From Agromyces sp. ISL-38 (lineage in GTDB: Bacteria; Actinomycetota; Actinomycetes; Actinomycetales; Microbacteriaceae): a DNA stretch of 64,000 nt. Positions 47,744 to 64,000 of the stretch are shown one piece after another. Position 1 is the first letter of the stretch. Every line of letters begins with the position of its first letter. The stretch spans positions 434,001 to 498,000 of the forward strand of contig NZ_JAGGPF010000001.1 in NCBI RefSeq assembly GCF_018613935.1. The letters are read 5' to 3'. The translations under genes and the position numbers were made by a program. Below the pieces are notes generated by a model that was given only the letters and a program-made list of their open reading frames with translations, was not told the origin of the DNA and made no database searches.

Positions 47744-47842
47744 GCCGCTGGCTTCAGGGCGACTCCCGCAGAACGGGCGCTGAAGCAACCAACCCAGCCG
47801 GCCGCGGCCGACGGTATTCGGGTGGGGCGGACGCAGGTCACT

Positions 47843-48046
47843 CTGATTGCGCCTCACGATGAGGAATCCCTTTACGCGCAGCGTCTCTGCCATCGTCGGA
47901 ACGGTGAGTGAGCGCCCCGACGGCAGCGTGACCCGTTGGGTCTCGAGTGGGCGCGTTCGGATCAGCTGTCGGATGCCGGTCTCGATGCCGCCGAGCTCGC
48001 CGAGGATGATCTTGCCCGGCGTGAGCCGGTTCGTGACGAACCCTCC
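47843..48046 (-). pseudogene. Remnant of nucleotidyltransferase (AbiEii-like toxin)
   Basis: About 68 residues of the minus-strand frame resemble an internal part of AbiEii/nucleotidyltransferase toxins: TGIRQLIRTRPLETQRVTLPSGRSLTVPTMAETLRVKGFLIVRRNQ, where family members normally continue with TRDYLDV. The frame breaks off after this (RRNQ then SDLRPPHP) and the N-terminal catalytic part is missing. It lies just behind the MazEF pair in the 459-bp gap 47744-48202, which otherwise shows nothing. Assigned from memory of the family pattern. Confidence 0.55.
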
Positions 48047-48202
48047 CTCGCTCTCGAGCGGAAGCACCCGATGATACCCACACCGGCCCCGTGATCGCCC
48101 AGACGGCAATGACCAGGGCGACGAGCAGCCCGCCCGCGGGTTCGATCATCTGCACATCACGCCTGCGATCCTCGCAGCCGCCGCGTCGCGAGCCGCGCGG
48201 GC

Positions 48203-49222
48203 TCACGCGGAGGTTGTGAGCACGGCCAGGGTGAGGCGGTGCGCGAGTGCCTCGCCGCGCCGGAAGCGGTCGAGCTCGGCGAGCGTCTCGTCCGTCATCC
48301 GGTGCACCTCGCTGCCGAGCGAGCCCGCGATGTGCGGCGTGAGGAACACGTTCGGCATCGCCCGCAGCGGCGAGTCGGCGGGCAGCGGCTCGGGCTCTGT
48401 CACGTCGAGCACTGCAGACAGTCGCCCGCTCGCGCAGGCGGATTCGAGCGCTGCGTGGTCCACGAGGGCGCCGCGCGCAGTGTTGACGAGCGTTGCACCG
48501 TCCGGCAGCGCCGCGAGCTCCGCGGCGCCGATCATGCCGCGCGTGCTGTCGAGCGCCGGCGCGTGCAGCGAGAGCACGCTCACCTGTGGCAGGATGCGCT
48601 CGAGCGGGAGCAACTCGGCACCCGCCGTTGCGACCGCGTCGGCGTCGACGTAGGGGTCGTGCACCAGGATCCTCGCCGTCGGCAGCACGACGCGAAGCAG
48701 CTCGACGACGCGGCGCCCGATGCGCGAAAAGCCGACGATCCCGATCGTCCGCTCATAGTTCGACAGGTCGAAGCGCTCGCCGAGCTCGCGCCGCCCATCG
48801 AGCTGGGCGCCGCCATCGCGACCGAGGCGGAACGCTTGCTTGCCGGCGAACACGATCGCCGCGAGCGCGAACTCCGCGACGGGCACGGCGTTCGCGTCGA
48901 CGTTGCTCGTCACCTCGACGCCGCGCGACCACAGCGCCTCGGTGACGATGCCTCGAACGCTTCCCGCCCCGTGCAACAGCGCGCGCAGACCGGGCAGCCG
49001 CGCCATCGCCGCCTCGTCGAGCTCCGGGGCGCCCCAGGAGCTCACGATGACCTCGACCTCGGCGAGCGCCGCGTCGTCGAGCCCCTCGAGCAAGGTGCGT
49101 GGCGAGGGCGCCACGAGCCGGATCCGGCGCTCCAGCTCGGCATGCCTGGCGGCATCGAAGTGCATACGGTGGGCGAGGTCGTTCATGAGCAGCAGGCCCG
49201 CGGGCCGGTCGTCCGTTGTCAT
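48203..49222 (-). CDS. D-2-hydroxyacid dehydrogenase family protein
   Basis: 339 residues. NAD domain GIVGFSRIGRRVVELLR near 160, catalytic Arg in LVNTARGALVDHAAL near 245, Glu in LDVTEPEPLPADSPL near 275, and His in FLTPHIAGSLGSE near 297. The fold is that of phosphoglycerate/glyoxylate-hydroxypyruvate reductases. ATG 49222 follows GGAGGA. It is divergent from the DUF2264 gene, 64 bp apart. In a sugar-acid locus it may reduce or oxidise a 2-hydroxy/2-keto acid, but the substrate is not shown. Confidence 0.88.
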   Translation of the reverse strand: MTTDDRPAGLLLMNDLAHRMHFDAARHAELERRIRLVAPSPRTLLEGLDDAALAEVEVIVSSWGAPELDEAAMARLPGLRALLHGAGSVRGIVTEALWSRGVEVTSNVDANAVPVAEFALAAIVFAGKQAFRLGRDGGAQLDGRRELGERFDLSNYERTIGIVGFSRIGRRVVELLRVVLPTARILVHDPYVDADAVATAGAELLPLERILPQVSVLSLHAPALDSTRGMIGAAELAALPDGATLVNTARGALVDHAALESACASGRLSAVLDVTEPEPLPADSPLRAMPNVFLTPHIAGSLGSEVHRMTDETLAELDRFRRGEALAHRLTLAVLTTSA

Positions 49223-49286
49223 TGTCGTGTCCTCCGTTGCTGACGTCGCTTGCGGTTCGCGCCGGATCCCGGCGAAGCTGTCGGGG

Positions 49287-51275
49287 ATGCTTCCCAACCA
49301 TCCGGCGCTCTCGGAGCCCGCTGACCCCCGCTCGCCGCTGACCGGGCTCGGCCGCGCCCACTGGGCGGAACTCGCCGACCACATGCTGCGCTCGGTGCGC
49401 CCCTATGCCTCGCCCGGCGGCGCGCTCATCCAGCTGCCGGGCCCCCCGAGCCACAGCGGCAGGCACTCCGACGGTCTTGAGGGCTTCGCCCGCACGATGT
49501 TGCTCGCGGCCTTCCGGCTTCGCGGCGAACGCGGCGACGGCGGGCTCGCGCAACGGCTTGCCGACGGCATCCGCGCCGGCGTCGATCCGAGTGCGCCGGA
49601 CGCCTGGCCGCTGCCGGACGCCGTACCGCAGGCGCGGGTGGAGGCGGCGTCGATTGCGCTCTCCCTCTGGCTCACCGAGCCGTGGCTCTGGGACGAGCTC
49701 GACGACCGCACGCGCGAGCGCGTGCTGGCGTGGCTTGCACGCTCCGCGGCATCGTTTCACCACGCGAACAACTGGGTGTGGTTCCGCATCGTCGTCTCGA
49801 CCTTCCTGCGGCGGCACGGCGGCAGCGCCTCCGGGGAGCAGCTCGAGGCCGATCTCGCATTCCACGAGACACTCGTACGCGCGGACGGCTGGATGAGCGA
49901 CGGCGAGGAGCGCGCCTACGACCACTACAACTGCTGGGCGCTGCACTTCTACCCGCTGCTGTGGGCGCGTATGGCTGGCGAGGCCTGCGAGCACGGGCGA
50001 CGCAGGCGCTACGCCGAGCGCCTCGCCGACGCACTGCCGCGGCTGCTCGCCCTCATCGGCGCGGACGGCACGCCCCTGCTGCAGGGCAGGAGCCTCATCT
50101 ACCGCTTCGCCCCCGCGGCACCGCTGTGGCTCGCGGCCACGCTCGACGAGGAGGAGCTCGACCCGGCCCGCCGCGCGTCGCTGCCCGATCCAGGCATGCT
50201 GCGCAGGGCGGCCTCCGGCATGCTCGGCTCCTTCCTGCGCCGCGGCGCGCCGGACGAGCGGGGGCTCCTCACCCAGGGACTCGGGCAGTCGTGGCCCGCG
50301 ATGTCGCAGAGCTACTCCGGCCCGGGCTCGCCGTATTGGGCCGTCAAGGGCATGGCCGGGCTCATGCTGCCCGCCGACCATCCGGTCTGGACGGCCCGCG
50401 AAGCCGAGCTGCTGGTCGAGCGGGGCCCGCAGCGCGACGTCATCGAGGCCGCGGGCTGGGAGCTCGTCTCGGCGCCCGCCGACGGCATCGTGCGCGTCAC
50501 GAACCACGGCACAGACCACGCCCTCCCGGGTGAGCAGCGATCTGACTCCCCCTGGTACGCGAGACTCGCGTACTCCACCGCCACCGTGCCGCCGGTCAGC
50601 GCTGCGTCGTGGGATCGCCCGCTCGACAACGCCGTCGTGCTCGTCGACGGCGTGGGCCGCGGCTCGCACCGCACCGGCTTCGAGCGCCTCCCCACGCAGG
50701 GCCGTGCGCGCCTGAGTCGCGCGCGGGCGCACTGGATGCTCGACCGGGACGACGATTACGACGCCGGACACCCACGGCGCGGCACCGCACTGCTCGGCCC
50801 GTGGGTGACGGTCGCCTCGATCGTGCACGGCGTGGACGAACTGCGCCTCATCTGCGTCGACGAGGCTTCCGATGGCGTGCCGCTCGCACGGCTGGGACTC
50901 GAGTGCAGCGGCTGGCCGATCGACGATGCCGCAGAGCCCTCGGCGCGCGCCACGGCGCACGGCATCGAGGCAGTGACGGCGGCGGGGCTGCGCAGCGGGC
51001 TGCAGCTCGTCGCCGGACCCCTCGAGCCGGGGCTGCGGCGACTGCGCGACGTGAGCCCGCTCGGGCCGCGCACGGCCGTTCCGCTCGCGCGGGCGGTCCC
51101 GGGCTCGCTCGCCGACGGCGCGGTCATCGGCGTGCTCGTGTCGCTGCGGGGCGACCGCGAGCGGGCGGCGCGGCCGACGCTCACCGTCGGCGATCGCGAC
51201 AGCGTCTCGGTCGCCTGGCCGGACGACACCGTCGTCGACACCGTGGTGTTCGAGGTGCCCGCACACCGCTTCTGA
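49287..51275 (+). CDS. DUF2264-family protein (candidate glucuronidase-type glycoside hydrolase)
   Basis: 662 residues. The N-terminal ~390 residues fit DUF2264, an (alpha/alpha)-barrel: HSDGLEGFARTMLLAAFRLRG near 65, NNWVWFRIVVSTFLRR near 165, DGEERAYDHYNCWALHFYPLLWA near 212, LLQGRSLIYRFA near 270 and QSYSGPGSPYWAVKGMAGLMLP near 345. The remainder is a beta-sandwich domain. No signal peptide, so it acts on imported oligosaccharides. From memory, CAZy family GH154 (beta-glucuronidases acting on arabinogalactan) has this domain; that should be verified. ATG 49287 has a weak ribosome site. It fits the uronate pathway next door. Confidence 0.82.
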   Translation: MLPNHPALSEPADPRSPLTGLGRAHWAELADHMLRSVRPYASPGGALIQLPGPPSHSGRHSDGLEGFARTMLLAAFRLRGERGDGGLAQRLADGIRAGVDPSAPDAWPLPDAVPQARVEAASIALSLWLTEPWLWDELDDRTRERVLAWLARSAASFHHANNWVWFRIVVSTFLRRHGGSASGEQLEADLAFHETLVRADGWMSDGEERAYDHYNCWALHFYPLLWARMAGEACEHGRRRRYAERLADALPRLLALIGADGTPLLQGRSLIYRFAPAAPLWLAATLDEEELDPARRASLPDPGMLRRAASGMLGSFLRRGAPDERGLLTQGLGQSWPAMSQSYSGPGSPYWAVKGMAGLMLPADHPVWTAREAELLVERGPQRDVIEAAGWELVSAPADGIVRVTNHGTDHALPGEQRSDSPWYARLAYSTATVPPVSAASWDRPLDNAVVLVDGVGRGSHRTGFERLPTQGRARLSRARAHWMLDRDDDYDAGHPRRGTALLGPWVTVASIVHGVDELRLICVDEASDGVPLARLGLECSGWPIDDAAEPSARATAHGIEAVTAAGLRSGLQLVAGPLEPGLRRLRDVSPLGPRTAVPLARAVPGSLADGAVIGVLVSLRGDRERAARPTLTVGDRDSVSVAWPDDTVVDTVVFEVPAHRF

Positions 51276-51346
51276 TCCGCAGCATCCGGCCCGGGGAGCC
51301 TGGATGGCCGGCACCATCGCGTCGTCCGCTGCGCGGCGCAGCAGGG

Positions 51347-52657
51347 TCAACGGTGCACGACGGCGACAGGCCAGCTGCCGCTGTAGTCGCTCGTGCGGCT
51401 CGCGACGTTGATCGTGGCGATCACGGCGGTGATGGAGTCACGGTGCTCGATGAAGTTCGTGGTGTAGCTATCGTCGGCCCCGCTGGTGCCATACGGCACG
51501 GCCGTCGACCACAGGTTCGTCACCGTGGCGCCGCTCACGACGTCGGCCCTGAGCGTCGTGGTGCCGGTCATGCTGAGCACTTCGATCTGCCCCTCGTCGG
51601 CGGTCATGTCACGGAAGCGAGAGCTTCCGCTCTGCACCGTCGTCCAGTTCCATCCGCCGCTCCCCTGGCGGCCGACGAGCACCTGCCCGACCCCGTCGAG
51701 CGTCACGCCGACGCCGACGACGAGCTCGTCCGTCGCCGGATCGAGCGCGATCGAGGCGAGCTGTACCGGGTGTGCGACCGCGGCAGAGGTGGGCGCCGCC
51801 AGCACGAGCGTGGCCGCGAGGTCACCGGCGTCGACGGTCGTGCCGAGCGAGGCACCTGGGAGGGTCTCCATGCGAGATTGGGACGGGTCGTAGCAGGCGG
51901 CGTAGAGGTTGCGGCTCGCGGCGTTGTGCGCGGTGCCGCCCGCGAGCGTCCAGGTGAGGCAGACCCTGCCGTCGACGGCGTCGGCGCTCTTCACGTAGAC
52001 CTCGTCGAAGCCCTCCTCGGTCTTGCCCGTGTCGATGATGTTCGAGGGGCCGCTCCAGGTCGTGCCGTTGTCGCTCGAGCGGATCATCTTGTACGTCCGG
52101 TACGGCAAGCTCTGGTCATCGTTGCGGTTGTAGGAGAGGTACACAGTGCCGTCGAGCACGACCGGCTCGGGGTAGGCGACAAGGTCCGTGGAGACCGTGC
52201 TGCTCGTCCAGGTGCCCTGGGCGGAGTGCGGCGTCGGTGCGACGTGCTGCACGAGATCGCTCGTGTGGTGCGAGCCGTAGACGACGAGGCGGCCGTCGGG
52301 CAACTGGTCGAGCACGGCATAGTCGTGGTACGCCCAGGTGCCGGTGTTGCCCCAGGCGGCGACCTTGATCGGGTCCTCCCAGCTCTCGCTCGGGTGGTCG
52401 TACCCGCGGATCCAGATGTCCATCGCCGAGGCGTTCCAGACGATGTATGTGGTGTCGGAGACGGCGTCGTACAGCCCGCCGCCCTGGGTGCGCCGCGCCT
52501 GGTAGCTGGCGTCGTCGGCGACGACCTCGGTCGTGACGCTCGCCGCGGCATCCGCCTGCTCGGGTGTCGCGAACGCGGCGGCGGGGGTGAGGAGGGTGAT
52601 CGCGGTCGCGGTCGCGATCGCGAGCGCCATGCGGCGTCTGCCGGCGGGACGTGTCAT
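51347..52657 (-). CDS. Secreted BNR_4-type beta-propeller protein, candidate polysaccharide lyase
   Basis: 436 residues with a Sec signal peptide (basic MTRPAGRRR, hydrophobic core, cleavage after AAAFA near 31). The mature part has repeated strands of a seven-bladed propeller with family marks QGGGLYDAVSDTTYIVW, WAYHDYAVLDQLPDGRLVVYGSHH near 112, VYLSYNRNDDQSLPYRTYKMIRSSDNGTTW and EVYVKSADAVDGRVCLTW. BNR_4 proteins include ulvan lyases (PL24/25) and, from memory, rhamnosyl-glucuronate lyases. No anchor, so it is released. It is the last gene of the importer/catabolic operon, 33 bp behind the unassigned gene. Activity is inferred, not shown. Confidence 0.78.
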   Translation of the reverse strand: MTRPAGRRRMALAIATATAITLLTPAAAFATPEQADAAASVTTEVVADDASYQARRTQGGGLYDAVSDTTYIVWNASAMDIWIRGYDHPSESWEDPIKVAAWGNTGTWAYHDYAVLDQLPDGRLVVYGSHHTSDLVQHVAPTPHSAQGTWTSSTVSTDLVAYPEPVVLDGTVYLSYNRNDDQSLPYRTYKMIRSSDNGTTWSGPSNIIDTGKTEEGFDEVYVKSADAVDGRVCLTWTLAGGTAHNAASRNLYAACYDPSQSRMETLPGASLGTTVDAGDLAATLVLAAPTSAAVAHPVQLASIALDPATDELVVGVGVTLDGVGQVLVGRQGSGGWNWTTVQSGSSRFRDMTADEGQIEVLSMTGTTTLRADVVSGATVTNLWSTAVPYGTSGADDSYTTNFIEHRDSITAVIATINVASRTSDYSGSWPVAVVHR

Positions 52658-52690
52658 GTTGGTTCCTCTCGGTGATGCGGTGGATGGGGG

Positions 52691-53776
52691 TCAGGGTCTC
52701 CAGGCGCGGAGAACCTCGTCGTCAGCGAGTCCAAGGTGGTAGAGATGCAGTTCGTCGGCGCCCAGGCGTTCTGCCTCGGCGCGCGTGCTGCGGTGGATGC
52801 CGGACTCGGGGAGCACCGACACGTATGCGCCGGTGCGGACGCCACTTCGGCGCGTGACGATCCCGAGCTCCTCGGCCGCGGCGGCCGGCGGCCCCCAGGC
52901 GGGGACGATCGCCGTGTCCACCGCGCCCTCGGGCAGTGCGAGCAGCGGCAGTGCGGGCGAGAAGGCGTCGGGCGCCGCCGTGACGAACGCCGCGATCCGC
53001 TCGATGCCCGCATCGCGCGCCGTCGCGGCGAGCTCGGCGACGAGCACGCGCAGCGTTGCGAGCCGTTCGAGCACGAGGGAGGCCGCTGCGGCGACCGCGT
53101 CGGGCGTCCCGGGATCCACGCGCCCGGTGAGGACGTCGTCGACGACGCTGCGTAGCCGCTCGCCCGCGTCGCCTCTGCGCGTGCGGCAGTCATCGCAGAA
53201 GCACCAGGAAGCGAAGCGCCGCACGGTCGCGCTCCGCCGCAGGGAGGCGGTCTTGTCGTGGCCGACGGGATGATCAGCACCGAGCGAGGCGATGGCCTCG
53301 AGCACGATGCCGTCGCTGCCCGCGTCGGCCGCGGCGAGCACGGCGGCGCGGGCGTGCTCGCGCATGCCGGTGCCCGCGTGGCAGACGGTGTGGTGAAGCG
53401 TCGTGCCGCTCGCGTCGACCGCGAAGTGCTCGCGGCCGGTCGAGCCGTCGAGGTGGGTGAGCACAAGCCAGGCGTCGACGGCGATGCCGCGGGAGCGGGC
53501 GAGCTCGCTCGTGCGGCCGAAGGCATCGCCGGACGCCCAGCCGCTCGGCGGCAGCGGCCGGATCGCCGCGTCCCGCCAGCGCGAAGTGCCGAGGTAGCTC
53601 GCGGCGTGCCACGCGTCCACGACGCGCGGCACGCCGTCGGCGAAGCTCGCCGCGCGGACGGCGTGGTAGAGCCCTGCGACGGCGAGACGGTGGGGCGCGA
53701 GCTCGTCGAGCACGCGGGCGAGGCGGTCACCCGCATCCCACGGGTAGGCGTACCCGACGAGCTCGGCGGGGCTCAC
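52691..53776 (-). CDS. Unassigned protein of the uronate locus, possible TIM-barrel glycosidase-like
   Basis: 361 residues that I cannot place in a named family. Visible features: no signal peptide; VGYAYPWDAGDRLARVLDEL at the start; GIAVDAWLVLTHLDG near 107; GIVLEAIASLGADHPVGHDKT near 165; and FASWCFCDDCRTRRGDAGERL near 193, a Cys-x-Cys-x-x-Cys cluster that could bind zinc. The strand/helix rhythm and acid-bearing strands (LEAI; FCDDC) suggest a (beta/alpha)8 barrel of the kind seen in poorly studied glycoside hydrolases. ATG 53776 overlaps the enolase stop by 4 bp, so it belongs to the operon. Function unknown. Confidence 0.75.
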   Translation of the reverse strand: MSPAELVGYAYPWDAGDRLARVLDELAPHRLAVAGLYHAVRAASFADGVPRVVDAWHAASYLGTSRWRDAAIRPLPPSGWASGDAFGRTSELARSRGIAVDAWLVLTHLDGSTGREHFAVDASGTTLHHTVCHAGTGMREHARAAVLAAADAGSDGIVLEAIASLGADHPVGHDKTASLRRSATVRRFASWCFCDDCRTRRGDAGERLRSVVDDVLTGRVDPGTPDAVAAAASLVLERLATLRVLVAELAATARDAGIERIAAFVTAAPDAFSPALPLLALPEGAVDTAIVPAWGPPAAAAEELGIVTRRSGVRTGAYVSVLPESGIHRSTRAEAERLGADELHLYHLGLADDEVLRAWRP

Positions 53777-55026
53777 GACCCGACCACCCAGCCGGAGCGC
53801 CGGGCCGTCCAGCGGCCGAGGCCGCCGCTGAAGCCCGGTACGAGCCGCCGCGCGTACGCCCCGTCGTTGCGCTCCCGGATGTCCGAGGCGAGATAGCGCT
53901 CATGCGCGATGGCGTGGAGCTCGTGGTCGAGCTCCACGCCGAGTCCCTGAGCGCCGGGCACCGCGACGGTGCCGCCCTCGATCGGGATCGGGCCACCGAC
54001 GATGATGTCGTGCTCGCGGTTCCAGGGGTAGTGGGTGTCATTCGTGCGGACGTCGCCCGTCACGGCCGCAGCGAGGTGGATCATCGCGGCGAAGGAGATG
54101 CCGAGGTGCGAGTTCGAGTGCATCGACAGGCCGATGCCCGCCGCCTCGCAGAGCGACGCGAGGGTGACGGCGCGGCGAAGCCCGCCAACGACGTGGTGGT
54201 CGAGCAGCACAATGTCGGCCGCGCGCTCGGCGATCACCGGCAGGTGGGCGTCGAAGTCCTCGGCGAGCATATTCGTGGCGAGCGGCACCGCGACCCGCTC
54301 ACGCAGCTCGCGCATCGCCGCGAGGCCGAGGCAGGGGTCTTCGAGGTACTCCGCGACCCCGTCCAGCTGCTGCGCGGCCTCGACGGACGCGTCGAGGCTC
54401 CAGCGGCAGTTCGGGTCGATCCGCACGGGCGAGTCCGGGAACGCGTGCCGCAGCGCGCGGACGCCCTCGAGCTCCTCGGCGATGGGGCGCACGCCGCCCT
54501 TGAGCTTCCAGGAGCGGAACCCGTCGCTCGCCTCGAAGCGCCGCGCGAGCCCGACCAGCTGCTCGGGCGTCGCGACCTCGCCCCAGGCGTCGGGCCGCTC
54601 CTCGTCCAGGTGCCCCGCCCACTTGTAGAAGAGGTAACCGGAGAACTCGACGCGTTCGCGCACCGCCCCGCCGAGCAGCTCGACGAGCGGCACGCCGAGG
54701 AGCCGCGCGAAGGCGTCGAGCATCGCGACCTCGAACGGGGCGAAGGCGCGGTCGCCCCGCGCCCGCCCCAGGATCGCGGCGACGCGGGCGCCGGCCTCGG
54801 CGGTCGCATGCACGGGCAGCTCGAGCAGCGCATCCGCGATCTCGCCCATCTCGGCGAGGAGCCGCGCGCTGCCGTGCGCCTCGCCGAGGCCGACGACGCC
54901 GCTCGACGTCTCCAGCTCGACGATCGCGCGCAGCGCGAGCGGCTCGTGCGCGCCCGCCGAGTTGAGCAGCGGCGGATCCGGGAACGCGATGGGCGTCACC
55001 GTGATCCGGCGGATGCGCTCGGTCAC
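53773..55026 (-). CDS. Glucarate-dehydratase-like enolase-superfamily enzyme
   Basis: 417 residues. Enolase-superfamily order: capping domain (FPDPPLLNSAGAHEPLALRAI), then the barrel with Lys174-x-Lys176 (SWKLKGG), metal ligands Asp204/Asn206 (IDPNCRW), Glu229 (YLEDPC) and Asn252 (ATNM), and the Asp/His pair Asp276-His303 (LLDHH; SMHSNSHLGIS). KxK plus HSNxH is the glucarate dehydratase (GudD) pattern. It would dehydrate an aldarate to 5-dehydro-4-deoxyglucarate, feeding the next enzyme. ATG 55026 overlaps the kdgD-like stop by 4 bp. A truncated paralogue lies at 62801-63258. Glucarate versus galactarate preference is open. Confidence 0.87.
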   Translation of the reverse strand: MTERIRRITVTPIAFPDPPLLNSAGAHEPLALRAIVELETSSGVVGLGEAHGSARLLAEMGEIADALLELPVHATAEAGARVAAILGRARGDRAFAPFEVAMLDAFARLLGVPLVELLGGAVRERVEFSGYLFYKWAGHLDEERPDAWGEVATPEQLVGLARRFEASDGFRSWKLKGGVRPIAEELEGVRALRHAFPDSPVRIDPNCRWSLDASVEAAQQLDGVAEYLEDPCLGLAAMRELRERVAVPLATNMLAEDFDAHLPVIAERAADIVLLDHHVVGGLRRAVTLASLCEAAGIGLSMHSNSHLGISFAAMIHLAAAVTGDVRTNDTHYPWNREHDIIVGGPIPIEGGTVAVPGAQGLGVELDHELHAIAHERYLASDIRERNDGAYARRLVPGFSGGLGRWTARRSGWVVGS

Positions 55027-55928
55027 GGGACGGCGACCAGCCCGCGCTCGACCTGCAACAGTTCTTCGAGCGCGTCGAGCACGCCCTGCTCGGGGCGGCC
55101 GAGCGGCGCGCGGGGCGAGCCCACGGCGAGCCCGCGCAGCTCCACGCCGGCCTTGACCAGCGAGATTGCGTAGTCCGGCCGCACCGAGCGCAGCTGTGCG
55201 AGCGGCAGGAAGAACGCGTCGAGCAGGCGCTGCTGCTCGGCGACGTCGTGCTCGGTGAAGGCGCGGTGGAAGGCCAGTGCGACGTCGGGGGCGAAGGCGA
55301 ACACGGCCGAAGAGTAGCGTTCGACGCCCACCGCCCGGTACGCGGGCATCGTCACCTCGGCCGTCGGCAGGCCGTTGACGAAGAGGAAGTCCTCGCGGAC
55401 GGCGCGGATCGCGCGCACCTGGCCCTGCACGAGCTCGATCTTCCCCGAGCCGTCCTTCAGGCCGATGACCTGCGGCAGCTGCGCGATGCGGGTCGCCGCG
55501 TCAACCGAGAGGATCATGCCGGCGCGCTGGTAGACGATGATCGGCAGCGGGCTGGCCGCTGCGACGCGCTCGACGTACCCGACGTAGCCGGTGTCGCCGC
55601 TCGCTGCGCCGCTCGGCGGGAAGAGCAAAGCCCCGTCCGCGCCGAGCTCGGCGGCGCGGCGGATGCGCTCGCACGCCGGTCCGACGCCCACGCCCGCACC
55701 GGTGAAGACGGGCAGCCGGCCCGCCGACTCGGCGACGGCGACCGCGAGCAGCTCGTCGATCTCCGTGCCGTCGAGCGCGGCGAACTCGCCCGTGCCGCAC
55801 GCGGCGAAGACCGCGCCCGCGCCGCGCTCCACGCCGCCCCGCACGTGCTCACCGAAGACCTCGAGGTCGACGGCGCCGTCGGCGCGGAACGGGGTGACGG
55901 GGAAGAAGAGGAGTCCTTCGAGGTTCAT
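55023..55928 (-). CDS. 5-dehydro-4-deoxyglucarate dehydratase
   Basis: 301-residue DapA-superfamily enzyme, the length of KdgD. The N-terminal LLFFPVTPFRADG and FAACGTGEFAAL (near 41) are marks of this branch, distinct from dihydrodipicolinate synthase. Schiff-base Lys158 is in VIGLKDGSGK and Tyr133 in IIVYQRAG. It converts 5-dehydro-4-deoxyglucarate to 2-oxoglutarate semialdehyde with loss of CO2 and water. ATG 55928. It lies 44 bp behind the permease gene and is coupled to the glucarate-dehydratase-like gene. Confidence 0.9.
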   Translation of the reverse strand: MNLEGLLFFPVTPFRADGAVDLEVFGEHVRGGVERGAGAVFAACGTGEFAALDGTEIDELLAVAVAESAGRLPVFTGAGVGVGPACERIRRAAELGADGALLFPPSGAASGDTGYVGYVERVAAASPLPIIVYQRAGMILSVDAATRIAQLPQVIGLKDGSGKIELVQGQVRAIRAVREDFLFVNGLPTAEVTMPAYRAVGVERYSSAVFAFAPDVALAFHRAFTEHDVAEQQRLLDAFFLPLAQLRSVRPDYAISLVKAGVELRGLAVGSPRAPLGRPEQGVLDALEELLQVERGLVAVP

Positions 55929-55972
55929 CGAACGTCTTTCTGGGTGGTGGTCGGTGGTTCGGGCTGCGCGCG

Positions 55973-56854: not shown

Positions 56855-57785
56855 CGCTCCTCCTTCTGGTGATGTACTGCGTGACTGCGGCGAGCGCGCC
56901 AATGACGACGAGCAGGATGATCGCCGCGGCCGAGGACTGGCCGACGTTGTTGCCGATCGTGCCGACGTTGTACATGCGCGTCATCCAGACATCCGTGGAC
57001 CCGGCGGGCCCGCCGCCGGTGAGGACGTAGACCTCAGTGAACACGCGCAGCGCGCGGATCGCGGCGAGCGTGAGCACGATCGCGAAGGACGCGCGCAACG
57101 AGGGGATCACGATGTAGCGCAGCCGCTGCCAGCGGTTGGCGCCGTCAAGCGCCGAGGCCTCGTACATCTCGCGCTCGATGCTCGTCAGTCCGGCGATGAA
57201 GATCACCATGTTGTACGGCGCGCCCGACCAGATGCCGATGAAGATGATGGTCCAGATCGCCGTGCCCGGGCTGTTGAGGAACTCGAGCGGCGGGATCCCG
57301 ACGAAACCGAGCAGCGAGTTCACGAAGCCGAGCTCGCTCGGGTAGAGCAGGGAGCGCCACGCCTCGGCGACGACGGCGACTGCCGCGACGACGGGCAGGA
57401 AGACGGTCGTGCGCACGAACCAGAGGCTGCGCGCCTGGCCCTCGAGCAGCAGCGCGAGCCCGAGCCCGACGACCACCCCGCCGAGGGTCTGGAAGAACGC
57501 GATCTGCACGGTGTGCAGTGCCGCGAGCTGGAATTTCTCGTCGGTGAGGACCTCGGTGTAGTTCTCGAGCCCGATGAATTCGTTGCCGAGGAACGGCTGC
57601 ACCTTCTGGAAGCTATAGATGAAGCTGTTGAACAACGGGATGAACTTGAACAGCAGCGCGAGGACGATGGCGGGGAGCGCGAACGCCCACGCGATCGAAC
57701 CGAGCTTCAAGCGCATGACGAGCTGGCCCTTCCGGGCGACCCCGAGGCTACGCCTCGAGATCGCCCGCTCGGCGAGAGACGTCAT
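56847..57785 (-). CDS. Carbohydrate ABC transporter permease (CUT1, MalF type)
   Basis: 312 residues, six helices. FIPLFNSFIYSFQKVQPFLGNEFIGLENYTEVL near 48-80 and the EAA motif SIEREMYEASALDGANRWQRLRYIVIPSLRASF near 205 are typical of MalF-like sugar permeases. ATG 57785 overlaps the binding-protein stop by 4 bp. Substrate unknown, but operon partners point to a uronic-acid-containing sugar. Confidence 0.92.
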   Translation of the reverse strand: MTSLAERAISRRSLGVARKGQLVMRLKLGSIAWAFALPAIVLALLFKFIPLFNSFIYSFQKVQPFLGNEFIGLENYTEVLTDEKFQLAALHTVQIAFFQTLGGVVVGLGLALLLEGQARSLWFVRTTVFLPVVAAVAVVAEAWRSLLYPSELGFVNSLLGFVGIPPLEFLNSPGTAIWTIIFIGIWSGAPYNMVIFIAGLTSIEREMYEASALDGANRWQRLRYIVIPSLRASFAIVLTLAAIRALRVFTEVYVLTGGGPAGSTDVWMTRMYNVGTIGNNVGQSSAAAIILLVVIGALAAVTQYITRRRSDA

Positions 57786-59113
57786 CCGAGCACACCCTGC
57801 TCGTCGAGGATCTCGGTCACCGCGTCATCGAGCGAGGCGAGCTGAGCGGCGACGTCGCTCGAGCAGTCTGCGTAGGTCGCGTTGAGCGTTTCGCCCGCCG
57901 CCGAGCGGATCGGCGCGAAGTCGATCGCCGACGGGAAGGCGTGGCCGGACTCCTCGTAGATCTCCTGGATGTTCGCCCAGCGCTCGTCGTCCCGGACCTC
58001 GCCGGCGTCGAGCGTGCTGTTGACCGAGAGCCGCACCGAGGGCACGTCGCCCGCGGTCATGCCGATCTTCTGCCCCTCGGCACTGACGAGGAACTCGGCA
58101 AGCGCGAGCTGCGCCACGGGGACCTCGGAGCCCGCCATGAGGTAGACGTTCTCGCCCTCGGCGAGCGCCTGCGTGCCCTCGGGGCCGGATGCGGGCGCGA
58201 CGACGGTCCAGTTCTCCGCGCCGACGTTCGTGTCGAGCCCCTTCATCTGCCACGGGCCCATGCTGTAGATCCCGGCGCCGCCGCTGTAGAAGAGGTCGGC
58301 TGCCTTCCCGGTGGTCGCGGTGATCGCGTCGGCCTGGACGACCCTGGGCTCGGTGCAGACGAGCTGCTTGGCGGCCTCGACGCCCTCGACCGTGGCGTCG
58401 TCGAGGATCGCGGAGGTGTAGGTGCCGTCGCCGTTGTCGGTGACCAGGTCGCCGCCGTACGACCAGATGAAGGGCGCCGTCCACCAGGCGGCGTAGCCGG
58501 ACTCCGAGGAGAGCGCGACCGACCAGCCGTCGGAGTTGTCCTGGCCGTCGCCGTCCGGGTCCTCGGCGGAGAACGCCGAGGCGACCTCGGTGAATTCCTC
58601 GAGGGTCGTCGGTTCCTCGAGGCCGAGGCTCTCGAGCCAGTCGGTGCGGATGCCCGCTCCGATGACGTGACGGGAGTACGGGACACCGTAGGTCTCGCCG
58701 TCGATGCCGACGACCGACTCCCACAGCTCCTCGCCCACGAGTCCGTCGGGGTCGACGGTCGAGGAGTCGACCTTCACCAGCAGGCCTTGCGTCTGGTAGG
58801 AGCCGAGCGACGAGGCGTCGTTGATGACGAGGTCCGGGAGGTCCCCGGCCGCCGCGGCCGTCTGGAGCCTCGTGGCGAGGTCGGGGTCAGGCACGTAGTC
58901 GACCTTGATACCGGTCGCCTCCGTGAAGGCCTCGAAGATCGCCTCGTAGTTGACGGCGGCCGTCTCATCGCTGCGGGTCCAGACCTCGATGGTCTGCTCG
59001 GCAAGGTCGGGGCTGGTCGTCGCGGGCTCGCTCGAGCAGGCCACGAGGGGCACGGTGAGTCCGGCGATCGCCAGGCCGGCCGCGCCGATACGGAGGATGG
59101 AAGACTTGGGCAT
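57782..59113 (-). CDS. Sugar ABC transporter substrate-binding lipoprotein
   Basis: 443-residue family-1 extracellular binding protein. Lipobox PLVAC (Cys near 26). IEVWTRSDETAAVNYEAIFEAFTEATGIKVDYV opens the mature domain, and GVPYSRHVIGAGIRTDWLESLGL is near 140. DPDGDGQDNSDGW near 187 is a Ca-binding-like loop found in some binding proteins. It delivers the glycan to the two permeases. The promoter region shares the inverted repeat at 59161-59183. It is the first gene of the minus-strand operon. Confidence 0.92.
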   Translation of the reverse strand: MPKSSILRIGAAGLAIAGLTVPLVACSSEPATTSPDLAEQTIEVWTRSDETAAVNYEAIFEAFTEATGIKVDYVPDPDLATRLQTAAAAGDLPDLVINDASSLGSYQTQGLLVKVDSSTVDPDGLVGEELWESVVGIDGETYGVPYSRHVIGAGIRTDWLESLGLEEPTTLEEFTEVASAFSAEDPDGDGQDNSDGWSVALSSESGYAAWWTAPFIWSYGGDLVTDNGDGTYTSAILDDATVEGVEAAKQLVCTEPRVVQADAITATTGKAADLFYSGGAGIYSMGPWQMKGLDTNVGAENWTVVAPASGPEGTQALAEGENVYLMAGSEVPVAQLALAEFLVSAEGQKIGMTAGDVPSVRLSVNSTLDAGEVRDDERWANIQEIYEESGHAFPSAIDFAPIRSAAGETLNATYADCSSDVAAQLASLDDAVTEILDEQGVLG

Positions 59114-59160
59114 CTCTGCGCTCTCAATCGATGAAGGGTTCGAACTTCCGAGACGTTCAT

Positions 59161-59183
59161 GTATATGAATTCACTTCATATAC
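59161..59183. promoter_or_regulatory. Operator of the uronate divergon
   Basis: A 9-bp perfect inverted repeat, GTATATGAA and TTCATATAC, separated by TTCAC, lies midway between the divergent starts 59113 and 59268. Such AT-rich symmetry stands out in this GC-rich DNA. The encoded IclR regulator (60065-60856) is the obvious candidate to bind here and control both operons. A second small palindrome, GTTCGAAC, is at 59138-59145. Binding is inference. Confidence 0.65.
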
Positions 59184-59267
59184 CCGACGTGCTTCAGGAA
59201 TCTACGCTACGATCGGTGCACAATCCACCCCCCGACACGAAGTTGTAACAAGCGAGAGGTGCCGAGG

Positions 59268-60068
59268 ATGCAGAAGGTCGTCATCACCGGAGCGGGCGGC
59301 ATCGCCGGAACCCTACTCCGGCCGGTGCTGCGGGATCGCTATGCACTCGTGCTCGTCGATCGGCAGCCGCTCACCGCCCAGCCGGGCGAGCGCGCCGTGC
59401 AGGGAGACATCCTCGACCGCGAGCTGCTACTGGACGCCTTCGCGGGCGCGACCGCGATCGTGCACCTCGCGGGCATCTCGACCGAGGGCGGGTTCGAGCC
59501 GATGATCGACGTGAACATCCGCGGCACCCACACCGTGCTCGAGGCCGCGCGGGAATGCGGCGTCCGCCGCGTCCTCGTCGCGAGCTCCGCGCACGCCGTC
59601 GGCGCGGCCGGCATCGACCGCGCGCACCTCCTCGCCCCCGACGACGTCGCCCCCGGCTCCTTCTACGGCGCATCCAAGGTCGCCGTCGAGGCGATCTCCC
59701 GCGTGCACGCCTCGAAGTTCGGGATGCGCATCGTGCTCGCCCGCATCGGGACGGTCCTCGCCGAGCCGCGCACGAAGCGGCAGCTCGCCACCTGGCTCTC
59801 CCCCGACGACCTCGGCAGGCTCGTCGACGCAACCGTCGGCCTGCAGCAGGGAGGCGCCTTCCCCGTCTGGGCGGTCTCCGCGAACGCCAGGCGATGGGTG
59901 GATCTCTCGGCAGGACGCGTGATCGGCTACGTGCCGCGCGACGACTCGGAGCACTTCGCGCCGCCGATCCTCGCCAACCCCGACGACGACTCTCTCGCCT
60001 GGTCCACGCTCGGCGGACCCTGGAGCGGTCCTGATCCCGACTTCCGGTGGCAGGAGGCGAACCCGTGA
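59268..60068 (+). CDS. udh: Uronate dehydrogenase-like NAD-dependent SDR
   Basis: 266 residues, the length of bacterial uronate dehydrogenase. NAD motif ITGAGGIAG near 6-14, VQGDILD (Asp binding adenine), HLAGISTEGGF near 66, catalytic Ser in VASSAHAVG near 107 and Tyr133-x3-Lys137 in FYGASKVAVE. It oxidises D-glucuronate or D-galacturonate to the aldarolactone. ATG 59268 was chosen; a GTG nine bases upstream is possible. First gene of the plus-strand operon, coupled to the IclR gene by a 4-bp overlap. A related sugar epimerase is the alternative, but the neighbours favour uronate. Confidence 0.82.
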   Translation: MQKVVITGAGGIAGTLLRPVLRDRYALVLVDRQPLTAQPGERAVQGDILDRELLLDAFAGATAIVHLAGISTEGGFEPMIDVNIRGTHTVLEAARECGVRRVLVASSAHAVGAAGIDRAHLLAPDDVAPGSFYGASKVAVEAISRVHASKFGMRIVLARIGTVLAEPRTKRQLATWLSPDDLGRLVDATVGLQQGGAFPVWAVSANARRWVDLSAGRVIGYVPRDDSEHFAPPILANPDDDSLAWSTLGGPWSGPDPDFRWQEANP

Positions 60069-60856
60069 GTGCCGCACGGGCCGCGGATGGCGGCGAATCG
60101 GCAAGCGTCAAAAGCGCGAAGCGCGTTCTCGAACTCCTCGAGCTGTTCGGCGAGGCCGCCGAACCGCTCACCGCGACCGAGATCGCGGCGCGCACCGGTT
60201 TCCCGCGATCCAGCCTCCACGGGCTGCTGCAGACGCTGCTCGGGCAGCGCTGGATCGAGGAGGTCGATCCGGGCCGCTTCACCATCTCGACGCTCGCGCT
60301 GAGCGTCGGGGTCTCCTACATCGACCGCGACCCCGCAGCGCCCCACGCGACCGCGGCGCTCGAACGGCTCCGCACGGAGCTCGGCTGCACGACCAACCTC
60401 GCCCGCCGCATCGGCGACGAGGTCATCTACCTCGCCACCCGCGAAGCGGCCGACCGGCGCAGTCTGCCGTCGCGCACCGGCAGACGAGTGCCCGCCTTCG
60501 CCACCGCGCTCGGCCGGGCACTGCTGGCCGAGCTCACCGACGAAGAGGTGCGCGAGGAGCTCGAACGGCATCCGCGCCTCCAGGTCACCTCGTCGACGAC
60601 CACCGACCTCGACGAGCTGCTCGAGGAGATCCGGGCGGCGCGTACGAACGGCCACGCGATCGAGCGCTCGCAGACGCTCGACGACGTCGTCTGCGTCGCC
60701 GTCGTGGTGCCGTACCGACTGCCCGCGACCGATGCCATCAGCTGCTCGATGTCGCTCGCGCAGGCGACGCCGGAGCGGCTCGAGGAGGTCATCGGCGTCC
60801 TCGAGCGCGAGGTGGCGGGCCTCGCCTCGCAGCTGCGCTGGCTCGGCATCCGCTGA
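60065..60856 (+). CDS. IclR-family transcription regulator
   Basis: 263 residues. Winged helix-turn-helix (SAKRVLELLELFGEAAEPLTATEIAARTGFPRSSLHGLLQTL, about 16-60), then the IclR effector domain (RRIGDEVIYLATREA; RVPAFATALGRALLAEL; AVVVPYRLPATDAISCSMSLA). GTG 60065 follows AGGAGG and overlaps the udh stop. It lies inside the operon it probably controls; the likely site is the inverted repeat at 59161. The effector is probably a uronate or pathway intermediate. Confidence 0.92.
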   Translation: MSAARAADGGESASVKSAKRVLELLELFGEAAEPLTATEIAARTGFPRSSLHGLLQTLLGQRWIEEVDPGRFTISTLALSVGVSYIDRDPAAPHATAALERLRTELGCTTNLARRIGDEVIYLATREAADRRSLPSRTGRRVPAFATALGRALLAELTDEEVREELERHPRLQVTSSTTTDLDELLEEIRAARTNGHAIERSQTLDDVVCVAVVVPYRLPATDAISCSMSLAQATPERLEEVIGVLEREVAGLASQLRWLGIR

Positions 60857-60906
60857 AACCCACGACCACGTCAGCGCCACCGAGCGCGACACGAACAGGA
60901 GGACCG

Positions 60907-62418
60907 ATGAGCCAGCCCGAGGTACGCGCCTGGGATGCCCGAACTGGACGATGGGGCGACACGCTCGCCCACGAGACGAGCGCCGGGGAGCTCGCCGAGG
61001 TGGTCGCCGTGGCGCAAGCCGCATGGGCGGAGCTGAGGGGACTCGACCGATCGGCCCGTGCGGCACTGCTCGACGCGATGGCGGCGGCGCTCGAGGCGGA
61101 CGGCGAGCGCATTCGCGCCCTCGCCGAGCAGGAGTCGGCGCTCGGCACGGCCCGGATCGCGAGCGAACTCGGCCGCACCACCGGCCAGCTCCGCTTCCTC
61201 GCAGGGGTCGTGCGCGAGGGCGCCTACCTCGACGCGGCGATCGACCGCGCGAATCCCGACGCCGTGCCGCCCGTCGCCGACCTCCGCCGTATGCACCTGC
61301 CGCTCGGCGTCGTCGGTGTCTTCGCCGCGAGCAACTTCCCGCTCGCCTTCAGCGTCGCGGGCGGTGACACCGCAAGTGCGCTCGCTGCGGGCTGTGCGGT
61401 CGTCGTGAAGGCGCATCCCTCTCATCCCGCGACCTCGATCGCCGTGCACGAGGCGCTCGTCCGCGCCGCCCGCGAGACCGGCCTCACCAACCCGCCCGTC
61501 GGCATGGTCTTCGGTGTCGACGCCGGGCTCGACCTCGTCCGCCACCCGACGATCGCCGCGGTCGGCTTCACCGGCTCGCTCGGCGGCGGTCAGGCGCTCA
61601 TGCGCGCGATCCAGGAGCGGGAGTCGCCGATCCCCTTCTACGGCGAGCTCGGCTCGAGCAACCCCATCGTGATCACCGGCTCAGCCGCGGCCGAGCGCGC
61701 CGAGGCGATCGGCGACGGACTCGCGCGCGCACTCACCGGAGGCGCCGGGCAGTTCTGTACGAAGCCGGGCATCGCCTTCGTCCCGCGCGGCGAGGCTGGC
61801 GACCGCCTGCTCGCCGCGGCCGTCTCGGCGATGGATGCCGTCGGGGCGCAGACCCCGCTCAACACCATGATCGGCGAGCGCTACCTTGCCGCGGCGAATG
61901 AGGCGGGGGCGCGGACGGCCGTGCGTACGCTCACCGCGACGCCCGCACCCGTGCAGGAGCGGCCGAGTGTCGCGCCGACTCTCCTTGAGGTGGATGCCGC
62001 CGACGCGGGCGCCTGGGTCTTCGAGGAGGTCTTCGGCCCGCTCGGCGTCGCTGTCCGCTACGACGGATCGGAGCTCGATTCGCTGCTGCAGCAGATGCCC
62101 GGCTCGCTCACCGCGAGCGTGCACCTCGGCGAGGGTGAGCCGGTGCCCGACGGACTCGGCGAGCTGCTGGCGCTGCGCGCCGGCCGCGTCATCGTCGACG
62201 GCTTTCCGACCGGCGTCGCCGTCAACTGGTCGCAGCAACACGGCGGCCCGTTCCCCGCGGCCACGACGTCGCAGACGAGTGTCGGTGCGGCCGCGATCGG
62301 CCGCTTCGTGCGGGCCGTGAGTTGGCAGAACGCGCCAGAGCAGCTGCTGCCCGTCGAGCTCCGCGACGGCGCCGCCGGGGTACCACGCCGCGTCGACGGC
62401 GTGCTGGTCCTGCCGTGA
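60907..62418 (+). CDS. 2-oxoglutarate-semialdehyde dehydrogenase (aldehyde dehydrogenase)
   Basis: 503 residues of the KGSADH branch of aldehyde dehydrogenases. FAASNFPLAFSVAGGDTASALAAGCAVVVKAHPSHP near 137-170, VGFTGSLGGGQALM near 218, Glu247 in FYGELGSSNPIVI and Cys284 in GQFCTKPG. It oxidises 2-oxoglutarate semialdehyde to 2-oxoglutarate, the last step of oxidative uronate breakdown. ATG 60907 has AGGAGG eight bases upstream. It lies 50 bp behind the IclR gene, and the ThuA-like remnant follows after 10 bp. Confidence 0.9.
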   Translation: MSQPEVRAWDARTGRWGDTLAHETSAGELAEVVAVAQAAWAELRGLDRSARAALLDAMAAALEADGERIRALAEQESALGTARIASELGRTTGQLRFLAGVVREGAYLDAAIDRANPDAVPPVADLRRMHLPLGVVGVFAASNFPLAFSVAGGDTASALAAGCAVVVKAHPSHPATSIAVHEALVRAARETGLTNPPVGMVFGVDAGLDLVRHPTIAAVGFTGSLGGGQALMRAIQERESPIPFYGELGSSNPIVITGSAAAERAEAIGDGLARALTGGAGQFCTKPGIAFVPRGEAGDRLLAAAVSAMDAVGAQTPLNTMIGERYLAAANEAGARTAVRTLTATPAPVQERPSVAPTLLEVDAADAGAWVFEEVFGPLGVAVRYDGSELDSLLQQMPGSLTASVHLGEGEPVPDGLGELLALRAGRVIVDGFPTGVAVNWSQQHGGPFPAATTSQTSVGAAAIGRFVRAVSWQNAPEQLLPVELRDGAAGVPRRVDGVLVLP

Positions 62419-62428
62419 CGCTCCGCGC

Positions 62429-62800
62429 ATGAGCGTCGCGCTCGTGCTCCCGGGGGTTGGCCGCTACGCCGACCCCTGGCATCCCTTCGACGAGACGACC
62501 GACCGCCTCGCGGCGCTGCTGAGGGATGCAGGCTTCACGACGCGTGTCGCCGGCAACGTGGATGCCGCGCACGGCTCGCTCGCAGGCGTCGAGCTGCTCG
62601 TCGTCACGCGGGCGACCCGTGGCGCGGTCCGGACCCCGACGCTGGCCCGATCCCGCTGCGGTCGCGGCCCTCGACCGCGCCCTCATAGGCATCGGCGTGC
62701 TCGCGATGCACACGAGCGTCGCGAGCCTCCGCGACTATCCCGCCTGGGCCGCGGCGATCGGCGGCTGGCTGCCGGGCGTCTCGTTCCACCCGCCGGGCGG
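62429..62800 (+). pseudogene. ThuA-like gene remnant (frameshifted and 3'-truncated)
   Basis: The frame starting at ATG 62429 reads like the beginning of a ThuA-domain protein (MSVALVLPGVGRYADPWHPF...LRDAGFTTRV...GVELLVV, to about 62610). The family-like sequence then continues in another frame (WPDPAAVAALDRALI, GVLAMHTSVASLRDYPAW, GVSFHPP) up to about 62795, where it stops abruptly at the junction with the inverted enolase remnant. So there is at least one frameshift near 62605-62645 and a missing C-terminal half. ThuA-like proteins occur in sugar operons; this copy is not functional as read. Confidence 0.68.
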
Positions 62801-63258
62801 CCTGCAGGCTGGGCGAACAGGTAGCCGGCCAGCGGGACGGACGCGCGGACCCGTCCGCCGAGCAGGGCGTGCACGGGCAGTCTGTCTCGCCGTGCTCGCG
62901 CGTCCCACAGGGCGACCTCGAAGGCGGAGACGAGGCGGGCCGCCGTCTCGGCCACGCCGCGAGCGTCGAAGTGCGCCCGGCCCGTCACCGACGACCGTGC
63001 GACGTCTTCAGCGATCCGGCGTAGCCCGTTGATGTCGTGCACGGGTGTCCCGTGGAGTCGGCGGGCCGTATCATCGAGCAGGGCGAGATGCGATGCCTGT
63101 CCGTAGCTCTCATCGAGACCCGTGATCCCCTCGTCCGTGCGTACGACGATGACGGATCGCAGCGCCCAAGGTTCGTGGACGCCGACAGCGTTCAGGAGCG
63201 GCGGATCCGGGAAGGCGAGGGGGACCGCGCGGGCTCCGACGATAATCGGCACGCTCAT
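62801..63258 (-). pseudogene. Truncated glucarate-dehydratase-like gene (N-terminal part only)
   Basis: The frame from ATG 63258 matches the intact paralogue at 53773-55026 through its capping domain (AFPDPPLLNAVGVHEPWALRSV; LPVHALLGGRVR; LAGYLF) and stops matching about 150 residues in, near base 62810. The barrel with all catalytic residues is absent, and the frame then runs into unrelated sequence. Its start overlaps the GH35 stop by 4 bp, so it was once the next gene of that operon. It cannot be an active dehydratase. Confidence 0.75.
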
Positions 63259-64000
63259 CGGGCGGCCTCGAATAGCATCCCCATGGTTTCCGTGAAGGAC
63301 AGCTCGTCGAGGATCACGCCGTTCACGTCGACGACGGTGACGTCGTTCCGGCCCCGCCGCAACACGGGCGCCGGGACATACAGCCCTCTCGTCGGCCCGA
63401 TGTCCCAGTAGCGTCCGAGCAGTTCCCCGTTGATCCAGACGTATCCCTTCGACAACCCGCCGACGTCCAGCACGGCGTCGCCGACTATCGAGACGTCGAC
63501 GATGCCCTCGGATCGCACCGGTAACCCCTCGGTCACCGGTGTCGACCCGGTTCCGACGCCCAGCCCCTGGATCGACGGGAGGGCGGCGAGCTCAATGGCG
63601 TCGACGTCCCAGCCGTGCACGATCTGACGCTCGTGACGCACGCCGCCCACGAGTCCCTTGTGTTCACCCAGGCGCGGTCCGTAATTGACGCGGCCCATGG
63701 ACTCCACGATCACCTCGATATCCACGCCCGATCCCATGACCTCGAGCGGCACGATGTGGTCGCCCGATTCGAGCACCGCGACCAGTCGGCCGTCGACAAC
63801 GAGGTGCGCGCGATCCCGTACGTCGTCGATGCGCAGTGCCGCTTCCGCCCGGGGGCCGGGCACGCGTGCGCGGTAGCGGACGAGGCCATGGTCCACGCCG
63901 AGTTGTTCGAAGGTCGGCGGCACGGGCCAGCGTCCGAGGGGGCGATACGCCGAGTCGAGCGAGCTGTGCGCGTGCATTCGCACGGGCCCGGCGACCGCCG
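63255..64000 (-). CDS. GH35 beta-galactosidase, C-terminal part (runs off right edge)
   Basis: The frame is open to the last base of the window, so only about the last 247 residues are seen. They match the C-terminal jelly-roll domains of family 35 beta-galactosidases: VESMGRVNYGPRLGEHKGLV near the middle, and GLSKGYVWINGELLGRYW with GPTRGLYVPAPVLRRGRNDV near the end. The catalytic glutamates lie outside the window. It would release beta-linked galactose; with the uronate genes it suggests a galactose- and uronate-containing glycan. It is upstream of, and overlapping with, the truncated enolase gene. Confidence 0.85.
   Translation of the reverse strand, partial: AVAGPVRMHAHSSLDSAYRPLGRWPVPPTFEQLGVDHGLVRYRARVPGPRAEAALRIDDVRDRAHLVVDGRLVAVLESGDHIVPLEVMGSGVDIEVIVESMGRVNYGPRLGEHKGLVGGVRHERQIVHGWDVDAIELAALPSIQGLGVGTGSTPVTEGLPVRSEGIVDVSIVGDAVLDVGGLSKGYVWINGELLGRYWDIGPTRGLYVPAPVLRRGRNDVTVVDVNGVILDELSFTETMGMLFEAAR

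Follow-up and report, generated by a model that had tools for sequence, protein, structure and literature searches.

An inserted uronate locus in Agromyces sp. ISL-38 and a conserved, nameless barrel protein as its candidate lactone opener

Introduction

The product of uronate dehydrogenase (Udh) is a lactone, and in proteobacteria enzymes for the lactone-opening step are known. What, then, performs this step in an actinobacterium whose genes for uronate oxidation lie together in one locus, among which no named lactone-opening candidate was found? The question is raised by a stretch of 64,000 nucleotides (the window) from Agromyces sp. ISL-38 (contig NZ_JAGGPF010000001.1, positions 434,001 to 498,000), which lies on a contig of 617 kb in a draft genome of 3.72 Mb (24 contigs, 92.9% complete). 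Here the locus is read as an inserted island for the oxidative catabolism of uronic-acid glycans, in which a nameless protein, called ORPH below, is the proposed lactone opener; a probability of about 0.45 is given to this explanation as a whole. The gene identities by family, the linkage of the genes, the fold of ORPH and the insertion are directly supported by the analyses below; all substrates, the lactone-opening role and the operator are proposals built on them. As a pathway, the oxidative use of uronates is ordinary; the new content consists of ORPH, the neighbourhood of a DUF2264 gene and a dehydrogenase gene without GH88/GH105, and the insertion.

The oxidative uronate genes

Gene families were named by Pfam, NCBIfam and PDB sequence searches. 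These recovered all of the parts that a first-pass annotation had listed between 48203 and 64000: a CUT1 importer, KdgD, a GudD-like enzyme (one intact gene), Udh, an IclR regulator, a KGSADH-type dehydrogenase, BNR_4, DUF2264 and GH35. The annotation did not mention a 2-hydroxyacid dehydrogenase at the start of the interval (HADH, 48203-49222) or ORPH (52691-53776). Two divergent operons carry the route. The minus-strand run, from 59113 down to 51347, encodes the solute-binding protein, two permeases, KdgD, the GudD-like enzyme, ORPH and BNR_4; the plus-strand run, from 59268 to 62418, encodes Udh, IclR and the aldehyde dehydrogenase.

52691..53776, minus strand: ORPH, nameless TIM-barrel protein of 361 residues linked to Udh/GudD (conservation, model, fold, linkage)
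53773..55026, minus strand: GudD, glucarate dehydratase-like enolase (TIGR03247 and PDB)
55023..55928, minus strand: KdgD, 5-dehydro-4-deoxyglucarate dehydratase (NF002958)
55973..56902, minus strand: CUT1-kind ABC permease (PF00528)
56847..57785, minus strand: second CUT1-kind ABC permease (PF00528)
57782..59113, minus strand: solute-binding protein of the importer (PF13416/PF01547)
59268..60068, plus strand: Udh, uronate dehydrogenase (Pfam and PDB match)
60047..60856, plus strand: IclR-family regulator (PF01614/PF09339)
60907..62418, plus strand: aldehyde dehydrogenase, probable alpha-ketoglutaric semialdehyde dehydrogenase (KGSADH; Pfam and PDB)

Udh, an aldarate dehydratase, KdgD and KGSADH, which together define an oxidative uronate locus, are all present in this one locus. 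The Udh-like SDR has a uronate dehydrogenase, 3rft, as its top PDB match (E 1.2e-37), and a Streptomyces Udh has been characterised on glucuronate and galacturonate (PMC4476818), which makes the step a known one for that group. KdgD passes model NF002958 (333 bits, cut-off 278) and fails the stricter TIGR03249 (266 bits, cut-off 374). The GudD-like enolase scores 221 bits with TIGR03247, far below the cut-off of 829. Its closest PDB chains (4it1, 3vdg, 3vc5 and 3va8) are titled putative or probable dehydratases, 4it1 and 3vdg as glucarate dehydratases, and it has a KxK at 174-176, Asp/Asn at 204 and 206, Glu 229, Asp 276 and His 303, the motifs expected of GlucD. The aldehyde dehydrogenase is nearest to 3v4c and 1eyy and is not of the NF042993 type (74 bits against a cut-off of 770). 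Taken together, the families and the grouping of the same genes in relatives leave an oxidative uronate set well supported here.

The first-pass annotation had called this pathway complete. Its enzymes Udh, GudD, KdgD and KGSADH stand by family; completeness is less sure, because the product of Udh is a lactone and a search for one lactonase family alone, SGL (PF08450), gave no match (E 1e-10) in the 92.9% complete draft genome. Compared with the oxidative pathway of Agrobacterium and Pseudomonas (PMC6353982), the Udh, KdgD and aldehyde dehydrogenase steps are alike by family. However, none of the genes here could be assigned to Gli, Gci or any known lactonase, the GudD-like enzyme falls below its cut-off, and ORPH is extra. 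In Pseudomonas putida, a lactonase gene that is a neighbour of udh by gene number is important for growth on glucuronate (PMC9007349). The oxidative route has been explored for the production of aldaric acids (PMC4476818) and butanediol (PMC6353982).

ORPH, a conserved barrel protein linked to Udh and GudD

ORPH has no match in Pfam (E 0.1), in NCBIfam (E 0.01) or among PDB sequences, and no literature on it was met, a nameless protein not being directly searchable. Its structure model is confident (predicted local distance difference test score, pLDDT, 90.6) and has the TIM barrel seen in glycoside hydrolases, although it matches no family model, GH42 or other, by sequence. The fold is like that of the Cwp19, PgaB and GH42 barrels, with 8-16% identity among the matches listed and no sequence-level match. 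Fifteen residues are invariant across 45 of 45 aligned ORPH proteins, namely W13, D14, Y37, H38, R41, W103, E160, H169, H173, K175, Y346, H347 and three others. Most of these sit at, or directly after, strands of the modelled barrel, and D14 and E160 are the sole invariant acidic residues.

The genomic address of ORPH is equally clear. A pattern scan of genome contigs with the window ORPH gave 43 related loci, titled as actinobacterial or placed there by us, in which neighbours were counted over the fetched flanks (short in some cases). Udh or GudD is present in 42 of the 43, L037 having neither; Udh occurs in 37, GudD in 28, KdgD in 22 and KGSADH in 15, and the order KdgD-GudD-ORPH was counted by eye in 16. 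ORPH is kept in four loci that have an HpcH/HpaI aldolase and a MOFRL kinase without KdgD, and in four that have an ILVD/EDD dehydratase without a GudD match (for these rarer gene clusters, as for the importers and pectate-lyase-like genes below, the family was taken from one scanned member per cluster). Since ORPH is constant while the lower pathway varies, it can be placed above 5-dehydro-4-deoxyglucarate. Importers of the SSF, TRAP or TctA type, found in 13 of the 43 loci, suggest that its substrate is a monomer.

A similar picture comes from 296 sampled genomes of the class, among them that of Agromyces sp. ISL-38. ORPH matches occur in 43 genomes and Udh matches in 87 (threshold E 1e-20, some of the latter at only 33-39% identity). 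A strong ORPH match (E under 1e-80) is present in 28 genomes, ours included. Every one of them has Udh, and in 26 the two genes lie no more than 10 kb apart; in the remaining two, ORPH is at a contig end (G326) or far from Udh (G469). Fisher's test puts the association at 3.6e-17, a value that is overstated, as the genomes are not independent.

What ORPH may do

From these data ORPH most likely acts between Udh and GudD, where we infer that it opens the aldarolactone. The proposed sequence of events is as follows. BNR_4, secreted and probably a uronate lyase, would trim the glycan outside the cell, and the CUT1 importer would take the fragments in. GH35 and the DUF2264 dehydratase would then process them in the cytoplasm, and Udh would convert the freed glucuronate or galacturonate to aldaro-1,5-lactone. 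ORPH would hydrolyse the lactone to aldarate, its glycoside-hydrolase-like barrel acting at C1, as glycosidases do. GudD would dehydrate the aldarate, KdgD would dehydrate and decarboxylate the product, and the aldehyde dehydrogenase would yield 2-oxoglutarate. UxuL is an SMP-30 propeller, whereas ORPH is a TIM barrel. The reaction proposed for ORPH is that of the UxuL and UxuF aldaro-1,5-lactonases described in PMC6353982. Given the conservation of ORPH, its confident model and its clear genomic address, a single assay coupled to Udh could reveal its function.

Several observations weigh against this explanation. The window ORPH differs from its relatives at 21 of 62 near-invariant columns. 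Nineteen of the 28 strong-ORPH genomes belong to one genus (g112), with seven genera in total, and ORPH is rare in the family to which the window belongs (with a single-sequence query, 5 matching genomes of 199, that of the window among them). No ORPH match is found in 51 of the 87 genomes with Udh, so ORPH is not always needed by the route. Of the 28 strong-ORPH genomes, 26 carry an SGL gene somewhere, so that the want of another lactonase is not general. Among the 15 genomes with weaker ORPH matches, Udh is present in eight and linked in one. More distant homologues were met in a Rhizobium, an Aureimonas and a plasmid of Alicyclobacillus, one of each; their loci have sugar importers but neither Udh nor GudD by annotation, so that uronates are not what unites the wider family. 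Two homologues in Haladaptatus carry a glycoside hydrolase annotation. A pectate-lyase-like cluster gene is present in four of the 13 loci that have SSF, TRAP or TctA importers. Finally, the scores of the candidate operator discussed below are, taken alone, little over chance.

Two other roles for ORPH must be weighed. Given its fold, ORPH could be a cytoplasmic glycosidase that frees uronic acid from imported oligosaccharides. This is unlikely: the SSF, TRAP or TctA importers of 13 loci argue against it, and with D14 and E160 as the only invariant acidic residues the usual second carboxylate of such an enzyme is not evident. Just as doubtful is a role on some other intermediate, as an isomerase, an epimerase or a lactone cycloisomerase, or in binding without catalysis. 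The presence of ORPH homologues in further carbohydrate loci would agree with such a role, and the invariant His, Lys and Arg set would suit many acidic sugars; however, that ORPH is retained whichever lower pathway is present favours the upper steps, though not decisively. Lactone opening remains the preferred reading.

Other stretches around ORPH and Udh were also inspected. Around 16 of the weaker ORPH matches, GudD adjoins ORPH in two (G368 and G319), and most have neither Udh nor GudD. A mutual exclusion of ORPH and SGL beside Udh was considered and rejected. In 56 genomes chosen by us and compared by eye, an SGL gene no more than 10 kb from Udh was seen in two of the 28 that have Udh but lack an ORPH match (G309 and G299) and in one of the 28 that have strong ORPH (G326), too small a difference; in G326, moreover, SGL adjoins a second, weaker Udh match on a different contig from ORPH. 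Where ORPH is missing, no common substitute was found beside Udh and GudD, the scanned genes including luciferase-like, MFS, lactate permease and pectin-related ones and one SGL. In haloarchaea, ORPH homologues (L188 and L189) adjoin a gene of the mandelate racemase family, with SDR, IclR, sugar importer and creatininase-family genes nearby.

Regulation

A palindrome between the divergent operons may allow IclR to govern both.

59161..59183: perfect 9-5-9 palindrome, candidate IclR operator, between the divergent operons

No further copy with up to three mismatches is present in the window. Across 50 loci, the best palindrome score reaches at least 12 of 18 in 17, versus 4 of 20 after shuffling. 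Of the 43 ORPH loci, 16 reach this score, and in 10 of the 16 the palindrome is near the start of a pathway gene, versus 0-3 in 20 random placements. Position thus tells more than score, and the palindrome may be a binding site of IclR.

The putative polysaccharide-degrading genes

The remaining genes of the interval are listed below. Two of them extend past the window end and are given in extended coordinates, which run from the window into an adjoining stretch, L006 (L006:3255 = 63255).

48203..49222, minus strand: HADH, D-2-hydroxyacid dehydrogenase, divergent neighbour of DUF2264 (PF02826, 142 bits)
49287..51275, plus strand: DUF2264 (GH154), probable beta-glucuronate dehydratase (PF10022, 345 bits)
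51347..52657, minus strand: BNR_4, secreted, probable uronate lyase of the PL25/PL42 kind (PF15892, 39.4 bits, cut-off 27.3)
63255..65012 (L006:3255-5012), minus strand: GH35 beta-galactosidase, reaching past the window end (PF01301, 354 bits)
64987..66129 (L006:4987-6129), plus strand: LacI gene, divergent from GH35 (family scan)

BNR_4 has a start that looks, by eye, like a signal peptide. PMC13193363 names this domain for a PL25 lyase. In that family, SH2L_Ulv3 has His95, His115 (listed as substrate-binding), Tyr160 and Arg176 (PMC13193363), and in the PL42 enzyme FoRham1 the corresponding residues are His85, His105, Tyr150 and Arg166 (PMC10951650). The window BNR_4 has H111, H131, Y176 and R193, a spacing of 20, 65 and 82 compared with 20, 65 and 81 in both lyases. 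Thus the first His, the His at +20 and the Tyr at +65 are common to all three, whereas the Arg is at +82 here versus +81. The Asp of the PL25/PL42 His-His-Asp triad, two residues before the first His, is an Ala in the window protein. Spacing within one residue arose in 85 of 100000 shuffles. Among 27 other PF15892 loci, the same spacing occurs in one and a looser version in 19, some of these perhaps in spurious frames; a phmmer search with the window BNR_4 had no match among open reading frames of at least 250 residues in these loci. PF15892 is present in 25 of 221 genomes of the class, own included. The fold of a PL25/PL42 lyase is a seven-bladed propeller; a single-sequence structure model of BNR_4 reached a pLDDT of only 37.

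The DUF2264 protein has no signal peptide by eye. Proteins of GH154 have been described as beta-glucuronate dehydratases that feed GH88 and have ten active-site residues, alanine mutants of which are inactive (PMC12269599). The window protein keeps all ten of the residues defined in BcGDH, eight as aligned through 9o4u/9nwf and two (E74 and R78) through 8oi4, and these ten positions are common to BcGDH, BT_3677 (formerly GH154; PMC12269599) and the window protein. A dehydratase is more likely here than a glucuronidase. The setting differs from that of BcGDH and BT_3677: the window genome has no match to the GH88/GH105 family model (PF07470), which 3 of 14 control genomes do match, and the HADH gene adjoins DUF2264. 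The ulvan dehydratase P29_PDnc (PMC8511951) was considered as a counterpart and set aside, as PMC12269599 states that there is no sequence relation.

In the class sample DUF2264 is present in 50 of 296 genomes, PF07470 in 42 and both in 21, so that 29 of the 50 DUF2264 genomes have no GH88/GH105 match. Among 20 other DUF2264 loci, picked by us from 71 match rows (L106-L125), the fetched stretch has a relative of HADH in 12 and of a heparinase-like gene in seven. PF07470 matches occur in three (L106-L108), none with HADH; this non-overlap of HADH and GH88/GH105 beside DUF2264 is suggestive only, and the idea that HADH stands in for GH88/GH105 was considered but not adopted. HADH is rare in ORPH loci (1 of 43), and we infer that it goes with DUF2264. 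DUF2264 thus raises the question of which enzyme removes the unsaturated uronate in dehydratase genomes without GH88/GH105. A second sugar-acid locus of the same genome (L063; contig C6:18001-38000) contains DUF2264, HADH (51% identical to the window HADH), a heparinase-like gene, an enolase, DHDPS, an aldehyde dehydrogenase and an importer; the heparinase II/III match is weak (19.7 bits, cut-off 24).

Since a BNR_4 lyase and a DUF2264 dehydratase would both leave 4,5-unsaturated uronate ends, in a genome without GH88/GH105, ORPH could conceivably be a new kind of unsaturated uronyl hydrolase. Udh would then oxidise the freed 4-deoxy-5-keto-uronate at C1 to 5-dehydro-4-deoxyglucarate, the substrate of KdgD, and GudD, KduI and KduD would be bypassed. 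We regard this shortcut as very improbable.

For the substrate of the whole locus, the first-pass annotation had proposed a glycan rich in glucuronate and galactose. This is plausible, given the PL25/PL42 spacing of BNR_4, the DUF2264 active site and the adjoining GH35, although the exact glycan named there is a guess. It had also taken the combination of BNR_4 and DUF2264 with the oxidative route to be little studied, which fits: no paper with the term DUF2264 was found in the literature searched, even though PMC12269599 covers the family under the name GH154. The GH35 C-terminus that it saw is part of a gene that is complete when read past the window end. The same gene set, which it had suggested looking for in other genomes, did not recur: none of the 43 ORPH loci has, in its fetched flanks, a relative of BNR_4, of DUF2264 or of GH35 at no less than 35% identity.

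The insertion

The locus sits on about 21 kb of DNA inserted between hemA and hemE. The window runs colinear with a sister genome (G504) as far as 46934, and the match resumes at 67897, at hemE; about 1.1 kb between has no clear counterpart. In all 14 genus mates that we picked from 30 searched, hemA and hemE are at most about 4.3 kb apart (G503 and G504 by coordinates), versus 22.7 kb here. This is an absence at the hemA-hemE site and does not extend to the whole of those genomes; G405, for example, carries Udh and GudD together with a match to ORPH at another place. A tRNA-linked insertion was rejected, there being no tRNA in 40000-64000.

47163..47743, plus strand: RHH antitoxin-like and PemK/MazF-like toxin open reading frames, left edge of the insert (PF01402, 17.3 bits, below the cut-off of 20.5; PF02452, 79.8 bits)
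47842..48060: left copy of an exact direct repeat of 219 bp with sharp edges, a fragment of the right AbiEii-like gene
62429..62800, plus strand: ThuA-like remnant, frameshifted and truncated (homologue L114:8852-9904 is PF06283; the pieces alone have no Pfam match)
62800..63258, minus strand: N-terminal remnant of a second GudD-like gene (PF02746, 36 bits; resembles GudD-like genes of fetched loci)
67394..67612 (L006:7394-7612): right copy of the repeat, inside an AbiEii-like gene (PF08843, 20.4 bits, below the cut-off of 22.5)

The ThuA-like and second GudD-like genes are on opposite strands and both are cut where they meet, near 62800; thus only one GudD-like gene is intact. The two copies of the 219-bp repeat lie close to either end of the insert and may stem from the insertion or from the assembly. 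Such a junction might indicate that the island is decaying, its glycan part defunct and only the use of monomers left. Changes in ORPH at 21 of 62 conserved columns and the lack of PF07470 in the genome would agree with decay, but the core enzymes, the importer and the regulators are all intact open frames, and decay seems rather improbable. Alternatively, the junction and the exact 219-bp repeat could be assembly artefacts, since the draft consists of 24 contigs at 92.9% completeness and the joins are abrupt. This too is doubtful, as the contig is 617 kb long and a false join does not explain the frameshift inside the ThuA remnant. Homologues of GH35 and the permeases lie about 5-9 kb from hemA, on the side away from hemE, in four genus mates (L147, L149, L152 and L154).

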